Assembly (NCBI GenBank): GCA_013377005.1
Contig: JACABE010000001.1
Coordinates: 273,307 to 337,306 of the forward strand
Source: Bacteroidota bacterium
GTDB taxonomy: Bacteria > Bacteroidota > Bacteroidia > Bacteroidales > JACABE01
Direction: 5' to 3'
DNA length: 64,000 nucleotides
Shown here: piece after piece, positions 3 through 9,124 of the stretch
How the letters are laid out: the number at the start of each line of letters is the position of its first letter
Numbering within the stretch: the first letter of the stretch is position 1
Position numbers and translations under genes: made by a program
The notes under the pieces: generated by a model
The model's input: the letters and a program-made list of their open reading frames with translations, nothing else
Databases searched by the model: none
Told to the model about the DNA's origin: nothing

Positions 3-1022
3 AATGCACATAATCCTGTTGATGATAATTGGATTAAAAAAGATGTTGACAAAGGAATTGCAACCTCTGACTTTAATATAATGCTTATTGGATTTGGGCA
101 AACCGGAATTTCAGTTTTAAAAAGACTTGTTGAATTTGGTCAGTTTGTAGGTTCTGAATTTAATGCAATTATCATCGATAAAGCCATGAATTCTAAAACC
201 GGTAGTTTTAATAACCGTTATCCAGGTTTAATTTCAAATTATAATTTCGACTTTGTAGAAACAGAAGTAGGGAAAGTAGAATATTATGAATTAATAAAGA
301 AAAATCTTAATGAACTTGACTACTTAATAATTACATTGGGTAATGATGCTCTGAATGTTCAGGCCGCATTTGATATTCAGCAATTGGCAAGAAAAATATC
401 AGATAGACCCTTGAAAATACTGGTTCGTTTGAATGATAGTTACGCTTATGACAATCTGTTTCAATCAACTGAAAATATTTCTATTGAAATTTTTGGCAGA
501 GAAAAAGATGTATTTACTGAAGATATAATAATTCGTGCCAGTCTTGAAAAAACAGCAAGAAAAATACATACTTATTACAATGCACAGTCTGATCCATTAA
601 AACGTCAATCATGGGATCAACTATCCAGAATTAAGCAATTGTCGAATATATCTGTTGCAGAACATATTCACACAAAACTGGCTCTTGCAGGACTGACGAT
701 AGCAGATGTAAAACAAATTGGAAATAAAGAACAATTCATTCTAAAAATAGGAGAAGAACGATTGTTAAACATTGCTAAAGGAGAACATCTTAGATGGAAT
801 GCACATCTTTTTGCCAATGGTTGGGTTGAATATAAACTAAACGAAATTCCTGATAAAGCAACATCGAACAAAAACGAAATTAAGAAACTTCATGCATGTC
901 TTGTAAGTTGGGATCAACTTTCAAAAGTCAATAAGCGTTTTAATGAAGATTATTATAAATACGACAGGGAAAATGTCACCAATATTTTCGAATTGATAAA
1001 GAATGGAATATATACAGAGTAA
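3..1022 (+). CDS. NAD-binding (TrkA-N-like) protein with C-terminal RyR-like domain; 5' end cut by window
   Basis: The frame is open to the left edge, so the methionine at position 81 is internal and the true start lies outside. Just after it comes a Rossmann-type loop GFGQTG, followed by alternating strand and helix segments as in TrkA-N/NAD-binding domains (about the first 150 residues). The last 90 or so residues carry a recognisable RyR-type pattern: EHLRWNAHLFANGW, then a conserved HACLVSWDQL and a late YDRENV. In RyR repeats the matching blocks are the E-H-x-x-W helix, GW, P-x-L-V-P and a final YDR. The next gene is also a RyR protein, so the two probably work together. The dinucleotide-binding call is good. 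The biological role is unknown; nucleotide sensing is an inference. Confidence 0.75.
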   Translation, partial: NAHNPVDDNWIKKDVDKGIATSDFNIMLIGFGQTGISVLKRLVEFGQFVGSEFNAIIIDKAMNSKTGSFNNRYPGLISNYNFDFVETEVGKVEYYELIKKNLNELDYLIITLGNDALNVQAAFDIQQLARKISDRPLKILVRLNDSYAYDNLFQSTENISIEIFGREKDVFTEDIIIRASLEKTARKIHTYYNAQSDPLKRQSWDQLSRIKQLSNISVAEHIHTKLALAGLTIADVKQIGNKEQFILKIGEERLLNIAKGEHLRWNAHLFANGWVEYKLNEIPDKATSNKNEIKKLHACLVSWDQLSKVNKRFNEDYYKYDRENVTNIFELIKNGIYTE

Positions 1023-1032
1023 TAAATTAAAA

Positions 1033-1323
1033 ATGAAATTAAGCTATAAACCGCTACCAGTTATTTTGTCAATGCAAAGTATTCCAAAAGAACTCTATGA
1101 GCTGATTGAGAAAATGGCTCAAAATGTTCATGAAGAGTGGGCAGAAGGAAGAATTCGGGAAGGATGGAAATACGGCAAAAAACGTAATGATATCAAAAAA
1201 GAAAATCCCTCACTTGTTCCGTATAAAGAACTTTCTGAATCTGAGAAAGAATATGACAGAAGAACAGTAATTGCTTCAATAAGTTATTTGATTGATAATG
1301 GATTTGAAATCAAAAAAGTATAA
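1033..1323 (+). CDS. Small RyR (ryanodine receptor) domain protein
   Basis: A protein of about 96 residues that is almost entirely one RyR domain (the PF02026 type). Diagnostic blocks are ELIEKMAQNVHEEWAEGRI, REGWKYGKKRND, NPSLVPYKELSESEKEYDR and a final helix. In ryanodine receptors these repeats are phosphorylation and regulatory modules; the bacterial role is not settled. I chose the ATG at 1033. An in-frame ATG at 1003 would overlap the upstream gene by 20 nt and add ten residues that look like read-through of that overlap. The gene follows the upstream RyR gene with about 10 nt between them and is surely cotranscribed with it. Family assignment is strong; function is unknown. Confidence 0.85.
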   Translation: MKLSYKPLPVILSMQSIPKELYELIEKMAQNVHEEWAEGRIREGWKYGKKRNDIKKENPSLVPYKELSESEKEYDRRTVIASISYLIDNGFEIKKV

Positions 1324-5957: not shown

Positions 5958-8423
5958 ATGAAGATTTCATATAACTGGCTGAAAACATATTTAAACATTG
6001 ACTTAACGGCTGAAAGTGCAGGGCAATTGCTTACCGATTGCGGGCTGGAAGTAGAGGGTATAGAAAAAATAGAATCTATCAAAGGTGGATTGCAGGGTAT
6101 TGTGATAGGCGAAGTAAAAAGCTGCAGCAAACATCCCGATGCTGATAAATTAAGCATTACCACTGTGGATGTTGGTGCCGAAGAACTGCTTCACATCGTT
6201 TGCGGTGCACCCAATGTGGCTAGTGGACAAAAAGTAGCCGTTGCTACGATAGGAGCTGTGCTATACAATGGTGATGAATCTTTTACCATTAAGAAATCAA
6301 AAATCCGTGGCGAAGTTTCGGAAGGTATGATATGTGCCGAAGATGAATTGGGGCTGGGTCATTCGCATGCAGGCATTATGGTGTTGGATTCTTCTGTAGC
6401 TGTGGGCACTGCTGCCAGTAGCTATTTTAAGATAGAAGACGATTATATGCTGGAAATCGGCCTCACACCCAATCGTTCGGATGCTATTTCGCATATAGGT
6501 GTGGCTCGCGATTTGGCTGCGGTTATCAATAATCTGGCGGATACTGCTACGAAAGTTGAATTAAAATTACCGAGTGTTGATGCATTCAACATCGACAATC
6601 ATAACTTGCCTATTGAAGTTATTGTTGAAGATATCCAGGCTTGTCCCCGTTATACCGGCATTACCATTTCGGGTATCGAAGTAAAAGAATCGCCCGATTG
6701 GCTGAAGAATAAGCTAAAAACCATTGGCATACGGTCTATCAACAATATAGTAGATATTACCAATTTTGTTTTGTTTGAAACCGGACAACCTTTGCATGCT
6801 TTTGATGCCGATAAAATTGAAGGGAAGAAAGTAATCGTTAAAAAATTAGCCAAAGGAATATCTTTCCTTACGCTCGACGGTATCGAACGCAAACTATCCG
6901 GTGAAGATCTGATGATTTGCAATGCCAACGAAGGCATGTGCATAGCCGGTGTTTTTGGCGGGGCAAAATCGGGTGTTACCACAACAACCAAAAATATATT
7001 TCTCGAAAGTGCTTATTTTGATGCCACCACTATTCGCAAAACCTCTAAGTTTCACGGTTTGAAAACCGATGCGTCTTTCCGTTACGAACGTGGCTGTGAT
7101 CCTAATATTACAGTGTATGCACTCAAACGTGCCATATTGCTGATTAAAGAATTAGCCGGCGGCAGTGTTTCGTCTGAAATTATGGATGTATACCCAACAC
7201 CCATTGAACGCAAATGTGTTGAAATCAGTTATCAGAATACCTATCGTTTGATCGGGAAAGTGATAGAAAAGAACATCATTAAAAACATTCTGACTTCGCT
7301 GGAAATTGAAATTACCAACGAAACCGAAGAAGGTTTGAGTTTGCTGATTCCTACCAACAAGGTAGATGTGGTTCGCGAAGCCGATGTAATTGAAGAGATT
7401 CTGCGTATTTATGGTTACAACAACGTTGAAATAGGAAGTGGTTTGCGCTCCAGTATTTCTTATGTATCCAAACCGGATAAAGAAAAAGTACAAAATACGA
7501 TTTCAAATTACCTTAGCAATAATAGCTTTGTGGAAATCATGAACAATTCGCTCACAAGTTCTGATTATGTGAATAAAATTGCAGATTTCAATCCTATCCA
7601 CAACGTAAAGATATTAAATCCATTGAGCAAAGAACTGGATGTAATGCGTCAGAGCCTTTTGTTTGGTGGGTTGGAAAGTATCAGTTACAATATCAACCGC
7701 AAAACAAGCGATTTGAAACTGTACGAATTCGGGAATACTTATACTTACAATGCTGAGGTGGGTGCAGAAGTTAATGTCACCAAACGTTTTAAAGAAGAAA
7801 AACATTTAGCTGTTTTTGTAAGCGGCAAAAAATATGCTGAAAGCTGGAACGTTGCTGCTTCCAATACCGACTTTTTTAACCTGAAAGCGCATGTAACAAA
7901 TATATTAAATCGTTTGCGTATCAATATTGATAAACTGAATGTAAACACGATTTCGAATTCTATTTTCGAGGAAGCACTGGAATATACTTCCAATGGAAAA
8001 GCAGTACTTACTTATGGCAGTCTGCATCCCCAATTACTTGCTTCCTTTGATATCAAACAAGCTGTTTTTTATGCCGACTTCCAATGGGATACTATCATTA
8101 AAATGATTCCCAATGCTGAGGTAGTTTATACCGAAGTATCTAAATTTCCTGAAGTCCGCCGCGATTTGGCATTATTGATTAATAAAGAAGTTAGTTTTGC
8201 TGAAATTGTAAAGCTTGCTTATCAGACAGAAAAAAATCTGTTGAAAAAAGTCAATCTTTTCGATGTGTATGAAGGCGATAAATTAGAAGCCGGCAAAAAA
8301 TCTTATGCAGTAAGCTTTACGATACAGGATCAGGAAAAAACCCTCAATGATAAACAGATTGATGGTATCATGAACCGATTGATAAAGGTATATGTTGAAA
8401 AACTGCAGGCTGTAATCAGGTAA
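5958..8423 (+). CDS. pheT: Phenylalanine--tRNA ligase beta subunit
   Basis: The beta chain of the heterotetrameric PheRS, which charges tRNA-Phe. It begins MKISYNWLK, the usual PheT N-terminus. An in-frame ATG eight codons earlier would lie inside the promoter -7 element, so the downstream start was chosen (821 aa). Domains in order: EMAP-like tRNA-binding domain (about 40-150, with HPDADKLS and VCGAPNV), B3/B4 editing region (about 210-390, with GQPLHAFDADKI), B5 region, and a C-terminal FDX-ACB anticodon-binding domain (last 95 residues, with SKFPEVRRDLALL). The alpha subunit pheS is not adjacent. Confidence 0.97.
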   Translation: MKISYNWLKTYLNIDLTAESAGQLLTDCGLEVEGIEKIESIKGGLQGIVIGEVKSCSKHPDADKLSITTVDVGAEELLHIVCGAPNVASGQKVAVATIGAVLYNGDESFTIKKSKIRGEVSEGMICAEDELGLGHSHAGIMVLDSSVAVGTAASSYFKIEDDYMLEIGLTPNRSDAISHIGVARDLAAVINNLADTATKVELKLPSVDAFNIDNHNLPIEVIVEDIQACPRYTGITISGIEVKESPDWLKNKLKTIGIRSINNIVDITNFVLFETGQPLHAFDADKIEGKKVIVKKLAKGISFLTLDGIERKLSGEDLMICNANEGMCIAGVFGGAKSGVTTTTKNIFLESAYFDATTIRKTSKFHGLKTDASFRYERGCDPNITVYALKRAILLIKELAGGSVSSEIMDVYPTPIERKCVEISYQNTYRLIGKVIEKNIIKNILTSLEIEITNETEEGLSLLIPTNKVDVVREADVIEEILRIYGYNNVEIGSGLRSSISYVSKPDKEKVQNTISNYLSNNSFVEIMNNSLTSSDYVNKIADFNPIHNVKILNPLSKELDVMRQSLLFGGLESISYNINRKTSDLKLYEFGNTYTYNAEVGAEVNVTKRFKEEKHLAVFVSGKKYAESWNVAASNTDFFNLKAHVTNILNRLRINIDKLNVNTISNSIFEEALEYTSNGKAVLTYGSLHPQLLASFDIKQAVFYADFQWDTIIKMIPNAEVVYTEVSKFPEVRRDLALLINKEVSFAEIVKLAYQTEKNLLKKVNLFDVYEGDKLEAGKKSYAVSFTIQDQEKTLNDKQIDGIMNRLIKVYVEKLQAVIR

Positions 8424-8476
8424 CTTTCTTTTAAAAACATGTTCATAAAGCTTGTTTTTTTCAATCGAATTATCAT

Positions 8477-8484
8477 TATCTTTG
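8477..8484 (+). promoter_or_regulatory. Putative -7 element for the outer-membrane barrel gene
   Basis: TATCTTTG is an exact TAnnTTTG match 13 bp before the ATG at 8498. A TTG at 8452-8454 could serve as the -33 element with 22 bp spacing. It suggests the barrel gene and the overlapping ubiX are transcribed together from here. Confidence 0.55.
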
Positions 8485-8497
8485 TTGAAAAATACTT

Positions 8498-9124
8498 ATG
8501 ATGAAGACAAAAATCATTTTAATATTCGTTTTTTTATCTTCTGCACTTTTGGTTAATGCTCAATATTTCAATGCCGGCATTAAAGCAGGAGTTGTAGGTT
8601 CTCAGGTTGACGGAGATGGCTTTGGAGGCTACGATAAATTAGGTTTAGATGCGGGATTGTTCGTTAATTATCAGCTTTCGATGCGTACTGCCTTGCAATT
8701 TGAAATGGAATATATCCAAAAAGGAAGTAGTCATTCTCCCAATGTTGAAAAAGGAGATTACAGTCAGTATAAAATGAGGGTAAATTATCTGCAATTGCCT
8801 GTTTTATTTCAATATAAATTGGCTCAAAACTTTTCTGTTGAAACAGGTCCGGCTTTTGGTCTATTATTAAGTAATTACGAAGAACGCGACCAATGGGAAA
8901 TTGAAAGCAATCCTTTCCGAAAATTTGCACTAAGCTGGATTGTAGGAGTAAACTACAAAATCTCCGAAAATTGGAATGCGAATTTTCGCTATGATTATTC
9001 TTTAATGGGTATACGACAGAAACCAGCTCCTTTCGACCGATATATTTTCTTTCAGTATGGACAATTTTGCAATACGCTTGTGATTTCAATTCAATATATA
9101 ATCAATCATGCCAAAGCAAAATAA
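8498..9124 (+). CDS. Outer-membrane beta-barrel protein (PorT-like family)
   Basis: A 208-residue protein with a signal peptide (TKIILIFVFLSSALLVNA, then QYFNAGIKAGV). After it come amphipathic beta strands typical of the small Bacteroidota barrels (OMP_b-brl_2/PorT-like), ending in an aromatic-rich strand. Such proteins sit in the outer membrane; the substrate or partner cannot be read from sequence. Its 3' end overlaps ubiX by 17 nt, so the two are cotranscribed although no functional link is obvious. It is a member of a broad family rather than a specific orthologue. Confidence 0.8.
   Translation: MMKTKIILIFVFLSSALLVNAQYFNAGIKAGVVGSQVDGDGFGGYDKLGLDAGLFVNYQLSMRTALQFEMEYIQKGSSHSPNVEKGDYSQYKMRVNYLQLPVLFQYKLAQNFSVETGPAFGLLLSNYEERDQWEIESNPFRKFALSWIVGVNYKISENWNANFRYDYSLMGIRQKPAPFDRYIFFQYGQFCNTLVISIQYIINHAKAK

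Follow-up and report, generated by a model that had tools for sequence, protein, structure and literature searches.

A predicted RCK-gated membrane channel with a RyR-like C-terminus, and an adjoining lone RyR-domain protein, in an accessory operon of a Bacteroidota bacterium

Two overlapping genes at the left edge of the window (the whole stretch of DNA analysed, 64,000 nucleotides, G000:C1:273307-337306) encode proteins with RyR domains. The product of gene 1, P0001, is predicted from its model to be an RCK-gated membrane channel with a RyR-like C-terminus, and P0002, the product of gene 2, is judged by its sequence to be a canonical lone RyR domain. We propose, with a probability of about 0.55, that P0001 is gated, by way of the RyR domains, by an NAD-derived nucleotide which a TIR or DUF4062 protein makes. 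The wider proposal that bacterial RyR-domain-gated channels might both receive cyclic ADP-ribose signals made by TIR proteins and act as their effectors, with DUF4062 able to replace TIR as the maker, is put forward more tentatively.

Organization of the locus

Both open reading frames lie where an earlier, sequence-only reading of the window had placed them (3-1022 and 1003-1323, + strand), with 20 bases shared between the end of P0001 and the start of P0002. The window contains no start for gene 1. The left flank was examined as L002 (G000:C1:256000-275900), in which P0001 starts at window position -957 (L002:16350); the window, which holds the last 339 residues, the cytosolic half only, therefore lacks RCK1 and the three membrane helices. 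The features in the window are as follows.

3-1022, + strand: 3' part of P0001, residues 321-659 of a 659-residue RyR-domain channel-like protein (ORF, left-flank sequence, Pfam, AlphaFold2, Foldseek, PDB profile)
72-686, + strand: second RCK/KTN Rossmann domain of P0001, residues 344-548, with GxGxxG at 350-355 (Pfam TrkA_N below cut-off, model, conservation)
699-1019, + strand: C-terminal RyR-like domain of P0001, residues 553-659, with pocket residues H582, W585, H617 and D641 (alignments, profiles, fold match to phage RyR-domain proteins)
1003-1323, + strand: P0002, lone RyR-domain protein of 106 residues (Pfam RyR, PDB 3nrt and RyR1-3, lone-RyR alignment)
1324-1426, no strand: right edge of the accessory cassette, where the sequence becomes homologous to the congener G003 again, at the end of the RNase R gene (about 1426)

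The two genes belong to an operon, most of it left of the window, whose nine + strand genes overlap or are separated by short gaps.

L002:6908, + strand: 377-residue protein with an N-terminal DUF4062-like domain, a membrane helix at 176-194 and a carboxypeptidase-regulatory-like domain
L002:8007, 9083 and 11800, + strand: three proteins whose N-terminal segments are hydrophobic and export-like; two are TPR proteins
L002:14508, + strand: M48 peptidase with a zinc ribbon
L002:15432, + strand: 164-residue zinc-ribbon protein
L002:15957, + strand: 112-residue helical protein

In G003 about 65 bases lie between the equivalent flanks (the ABC transporter/GntR side and RNase R), and the block of about 12 kb is therefore an accessory cassette; comparison with G003 places its edges near window positions -10663 and 1426. 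A phage origin for the cassette was considered and set aside, phage records matching only distantly or partially, with no integrase in the operon and no tRNA within the cassette. PADLOC recognizes none of these proteins as defence, the operon has no SIR2-SLOG or macro ThsA effector, and the two TIR_2 matches of the genome are both on other contigs.

Architecture of P0001

Pfam RyR scores the P0001 C-terminus at 12.6 bits (E 0.16), under the threshold of 27.4, and TrkA_N scores the protein at 21.3 bits, slightly below the cut-off of 23.8; Pfam, NCBIfam and PADLOC alone were insufficient to reveal either the channel part or the C-terminal RyR domain. In view of these weak matches a homolog family was assembled and profiles and folds were used. 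From Bacteroidota and Bacillota genome contigs 49 loci were collected, and the profile (A2) was built from 44 full-length members, seven of which match Pfam RyR at E <=0.01. Against the PDB this profile finds RyR structures at 2e-14 to 2e-7, human RyR3 included (2e-7), together with the RCK domain of the K+ channel Kch (1id1; 3e-5), GsuK (4gx0; 0.009) and plant DMI1 (0.07). The C-terminal domain profile by itself reaches RyR at 2.6e-7. The expectation that both proteins would score significantly in a RyR HMM search was borne out for P0002 and, with the 44-homolog profile though not with Pfam, for P0001.

The AlphaFold2 model is confident (pLDDT 88.7, pTM 0.84) and places, in order, transmembrane helices at residues 2-30 and 32-59, a pore helix at 67-82, the filter-like loop FVLGNDLVE and an inner helix at 99-136, after which come RCK1, RCK2 and, as had been anticipated for the C-terminus, a RyR domain (553-659). 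The LjCASTOR gating ring and GsuK head the Foldseek matches, and Slo2.2 is matched at below 1e-3; the C-terminus matches several phage RyR-domain proteins with probabilities of 0.97-0.99, but with E-values of 0.03-0.1. Together, profile, model and Foldseek give the layout of an RCK channel, in which pore helices precede two RCK domains. The sequence-only reading had described gene 1 as a GxGxxG Rossmann fold coupled to a RyR-like C-terminus. Both elements are present, but the motif, whose G350 is invariant in the 44 homologs, is part of the second RCK domain, and the protein is a predicted RCK-gated membrane channel with three transmembrane helices rather than a soluble sensor. The likely effector is therefore gene 1 itself and not a gene further left, where that reading had placed it and where DUF4062-like, TPR, M48, zinc-ribbon and helical genes are found. 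Among the classes proposed for the leftward search, a predicted channel is present in the form of gene 1; nuclease, TRPM-like and Pfam TIR genes were not found left of the window in L002, and SLOG-like proteins occur only in some relatives.

A TVGYG-type filter is absent from P0001. The FVLGND found there, with LGND replacing GYG, matches no known selective filter, and the filter sequence differs across the wider family. Among close relatives, R80, F82, L84, G85, N86, D87, L88 and E90 are invariant, from which either a functional, differently selective pore or a modulatory subunit is to be expected. We infer that P0001 is tetrameric and ion-conducting.

Distribution and paired channels in Bacillota

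Homologs of P0001 occur in 14 of the 295 genomes of the source's order. At many Bacillota loci the P0001-like gene adjoins one for a protein of about 520 residues that has a TVGYGD filter and a C-terminal RyR domain, and in 15 of 61 loci a TVGYGD-filter gene is itself the channel-family match or is no more than two genes from it. In the four such neighbours tested, Ion_trans_2 (38-51 bits; cut-off 22.5) and RyR (27.4-31.9; cut-off 27.4) are matched in a single chain, so RyR-bearing channels are real, and the Bacillota pairs are apparently two-subunit RyR-domain K+ channels.

L070:8891-10462, L083:11482-13020, L090:7536-9122 and L100:3959-5515: K+ channel pore (TVGYGD, Ion_trans_2) with a C-terminal RyR domain, adjoining a P0001-like gene

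Another membrane protein family was observed beside lone RyR genes and, in L041, beside a P0001-like gene.

L049:7987-10221; L051:8178-10652, - strand; L053:5656-7875, - strand; L041:14589-17105, - strand: proteins whose FVDPGN loop is invariant and whose end is possibly RyR-like

A likeness of the FVDPGN-loop family to CASTOR-type pores was considered; a profile of the proteins with the VDPGN motif (L049, L051, L053 and L041_14) had no PDB match, and the likeness was dropped.

Partner genes

That conserved neighbours would recur in other genomes, in surroundings typical of conflict or signalling systems, had been predicted and proved correct: TIR, DUF4062-like and M48/zinc-ribbon genes recur, and the relatives' neighbourhoods contain TIR, STAND NTPase and DUF4062 genes. 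Of 61 non-identical related loci, 18 have a TIR gene no more than five genes away, often as an immediate neighbour. The Pfam-confirmed examples carry TIR_2 or ThsB_TIR, and most of the neighbouring TIRs keep Glu at the usual catalytic position. As background, 59 relatives of about 3.4 Mb have some 65 TIR_2 matches, about one per 3 Mb; in the fetched loci TIR was matched in 19 of 281 genes near the channel versus 5 of 409 further off (p 1e-4), a comparison somewhat biased by a TIR model that was trained on neighbour TIRs. On a Butyrivibrio plasmid an annotated TIR protein is encoded directly upstream, and on an Arcobacter plasmid, the sole relative seen in a mobile context, an annotated DUF4062 protein is encoded directly downstream of split NAD-binding and RyR genes.

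In G000 and in four other distinct Bacteroidota loci (L035, L036, L037 and L054) a DUF4062-like gene stands ahead of TPR and channel genes. In the channel tree P0001, with its DUF4062 partner, is sister to the TIR-linked L034 (support 100/98), whose operon begins with TIR_2 and nSTAND1 genes, TIR taking the place of DUF4062. TIR-linked members are spread over all main clades. The frequent position of relatives beside TIR genes suggests that immune signals derived from NAD have a calcium-channel-like receptor in bacteria.

Many relatives have no nearby TIR gene, and a metabolic role has to be weighed. P0001 might be an RCK channel whose RyR domain reads the status of cellular NAD, ADP-ribose or adenine nucleotides and tunes ion balance or membrane potential, with no part in immunity and with TIR genes as mere co-residents of the same accessory islands. 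The RCK rings of known channels answer to metabolites and ions, RyR R12 binds plain adenine ligands (PMC13232231, preprint), and several Bacillota homologs stand among housekeeping-type genes without TIR, such as those at L063-L066 beside NusG-like genes. We nevertheless consider this role unlikely, given the patchy distribution within the order, the empty site in the congener and the recurrence of TIR, STAND and DUF4062 partners in different clades.

The M48 and zinc-ribbon pair, which spans L002:14508-15926 in the source operon, recurs as a module beside the channel in six loci of two phyla (L002, L039, L054, L060, L078 and L099). It is accompanied in L039, L060, L078 and L099 by a protein of about 85 residues, and L034 keeps a 71-residue remnant of the M48 peptidase start. 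This recurrence favours a further alternative, in which P0001 would be a non-conducting membrane receptor with a degenerate pore, a tethered nucleotide sensor controlling the M48 peptidase or zinc-ribbon partner. The substitution of LGND for GYG and its variability across the family would suit such a receptor, as would the pairing of the Bacillota P0001-like gene with a true K+ channel subunit, which is how a modulatory subunit would be placed. Against it, the pore helix and loop are confidently predicted, the filter residues are invariant in the close family, as for a functional filter, and the zinc-ribbon part is also found without the channel; we regard the idea as improbable. The zinc-ribbon family (F5) was itself considered as a channel-specific partner and rejected: only two of its five solid matches in the order adjoin a channel, so the link is not exclusive.

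Some further neighbours were recorded. In L043, L045 and L102, VTGHR-motif proteins that look SLOG-like are encoded directly beside a RyR channel gene or two genes from it; Pfam matched neither of the two that were tested (L045, L102), and in these two loci a TIR gene is also near. L045 further encodes, at 6172-8859 on the - strand, a single 896-residue protein that combines two RyR repeats with a STAND/AAA-like NTPase segment and shares the locus with the TIR gene and the RCK-RyR channel.

The RyR domains and the ligand pocket

The assignment of gene 2 as a lone RyR domain stands. P0002, the sole Pfam RyR match found in the genome, scores 97.6 bits over its full length against PF02026 (cut-off 27.4, E 5e-28). 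Among PDB entries it matches 3nrt, a solved 'putative ryanodine receptor' from Bacteroides, at E 2e-28, and clearly matches RyR1-3 as well.

In the 44 homologs, which are 16-51% identical to P0001, E581, H582 and W585 are invariant and H617, C619, L620, V621, W623 and D641 nearly so. The first His, the Trp and the second His of the pocket align with conserved residues of RyR1 and 3nrt in the PDB alignment. In the phage protein RyDEP, H75, W78, H100 and D117 contact the ligand, and H75 and D117 are catalytic (PMC13232231, preprint). By alignment, H582, W585, H617 and D641 of P0001 correspond to these four residues, the Asp position being the least certain. In the lone-RyR alignment P0002 keeps H43, W46 and D85 and has N68 in place of the third-position His.

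These residues bear on the possibility that P0002, and perhaps also the RyR domain of P0001, removes the signal instead of detecting it: like phage RyDEP, it would hydrolyse cADPR or mop it up, and so end or prevent signalling. P0002 has the equivalents of the catalytic pair (H43 and D85), and RyDEP relatives cleave or sequester cADPR (PMC13232231, preprint), yet the Asn at the third pocket position, the fusion of a RyR domain to a gating ring, which points to a receptor, and the behaviour of the other phage homologs tested, some of which bound the signal while none cleaved it (PMC13232231, preprint), make this reading improbable.

The DUF4062-like domain

The N-domain of the 377-residue protein (L002_06) has no Pfam match to TIR or to DUF4062 (PF13271). 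Homologous N-domains in L106 and L117 match DUF4062 below the cut-off, and the Arcobacter neighbour matches it at 1.6e-14. The model (pLDDT 82) consists of five beta-alpha units, and the closest folds found by Foldseek are SP1951, the CMP N-glycosidases BcmB and MilB, and deoxyribosyltransferases; a plant TIR appears only at rank 36 (probability 0.98), behind the general Rossmann-like/N-glycosidase class. E85 is invariant in eight diverse members. A nucleotide N-glycosidase-like enzyme would fit these features, though they fall short of proof.

The same N-domain was also seen in a 558-residue protein at L104:298-1974 (- strand), whose divergent neighbour (L104:2093-2620, + strand) is, by eye, a SLATT-like two-helix membrane protein.

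A model for the operon

Under the proposal that an NAD-derived nucleotide gates P0001, the protein would be a tetrameric RCK-type channel with a non-TVGYG filter and a gating ring that ends in a RyR nucleotide-binding domain. The exported TPR proteins may sense an event at the envelope, and the signal could be relayed through the periplasmic domain of the single-pass protein to activate its cytosolic DUF4062-like domain, which occupies the place of the relatives' TIR NADases. This domain would then make or release a nucleotide derived from NAD, possibly ADP-ribose or a cADPR isomer. Binding of the nucleotide to the RyR domains would change the RCK ring such that the pore opens (or shuts), and the resulting flux, of whichever ion, might stop growth or abort infection, an anti-phage purpose that we infer. 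P0002 may bind the same nucleotide and act as a detachable subunit, a buffer or an off-switch.

Direct action of cADPR on ryanodine receptors has long been debated. Small bacterial channels that carry RyR on the gating ring and are encoded beside TIR genes offer a directly testable receptor. If the proposal is true, an ion-flux class of effector would be added to TIR immunity, a tractable model of ligand gating through RyR R12 would become available, a function would be suggested for DUF4062, and cADPR-ryanodine-receptor signalling would have a prokaryotic counterpart.

Comparison with known systems

The literature searched describes neither RyR-RCK channels nor TIR/RyR host operons, nor a host protein that uses a RyR domain as a receptor; its reach did not include Burroughs et al. 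2015 (NAR), which may mention bacterial RyR domains. The binding and cleavage of cADPR isomers by phage RyR domains is a recent finding (PMC13232231, preprint). RyR, RCK and TIR are each known, and against the literature searched their proposed combination as a nucleotide-gated channel effector is new.

With the RyDEP family (PF02026; PMC13232231) P0001 shares the RyR domain, the pocket residues and a tie to TIR-made ADP-ribose signals, but RyDEP is a soluble protein with which phages counter defence, as a hydrolase or a sponge, whereas the P0001 domain forms the end of a predicted membrane channel that host operons encode beside TIR-like genes. Like RyR1-3, P0001 would be an ion channel bearing an R12-type nucleotide-binding domain, and the homology is detectable; unlike them, it has 659 rather than about 5000 residues, no other ryanodine-receptor domain was found in it, and its pore and RCK domains are of the RCK channel type. 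GsuK, MthK, Slo and CASTOR/DMI1, among which the best fold matches are found, have the same pore helices followed by two RCK domains; P0001 differs in its C-terminal RyR domain and in having FVLGND for TVGYG. As in Thoeris, TIR-type genes adjoin a predicted receptor or effector for ADP-ribose signals, but here an RCK-RyR channel stands in for the SIR2-SLOG or macro-domain ThsA, and the source locus has DUF4062 for TIR, together with TPR, M48 and zinc-ribbon genes.
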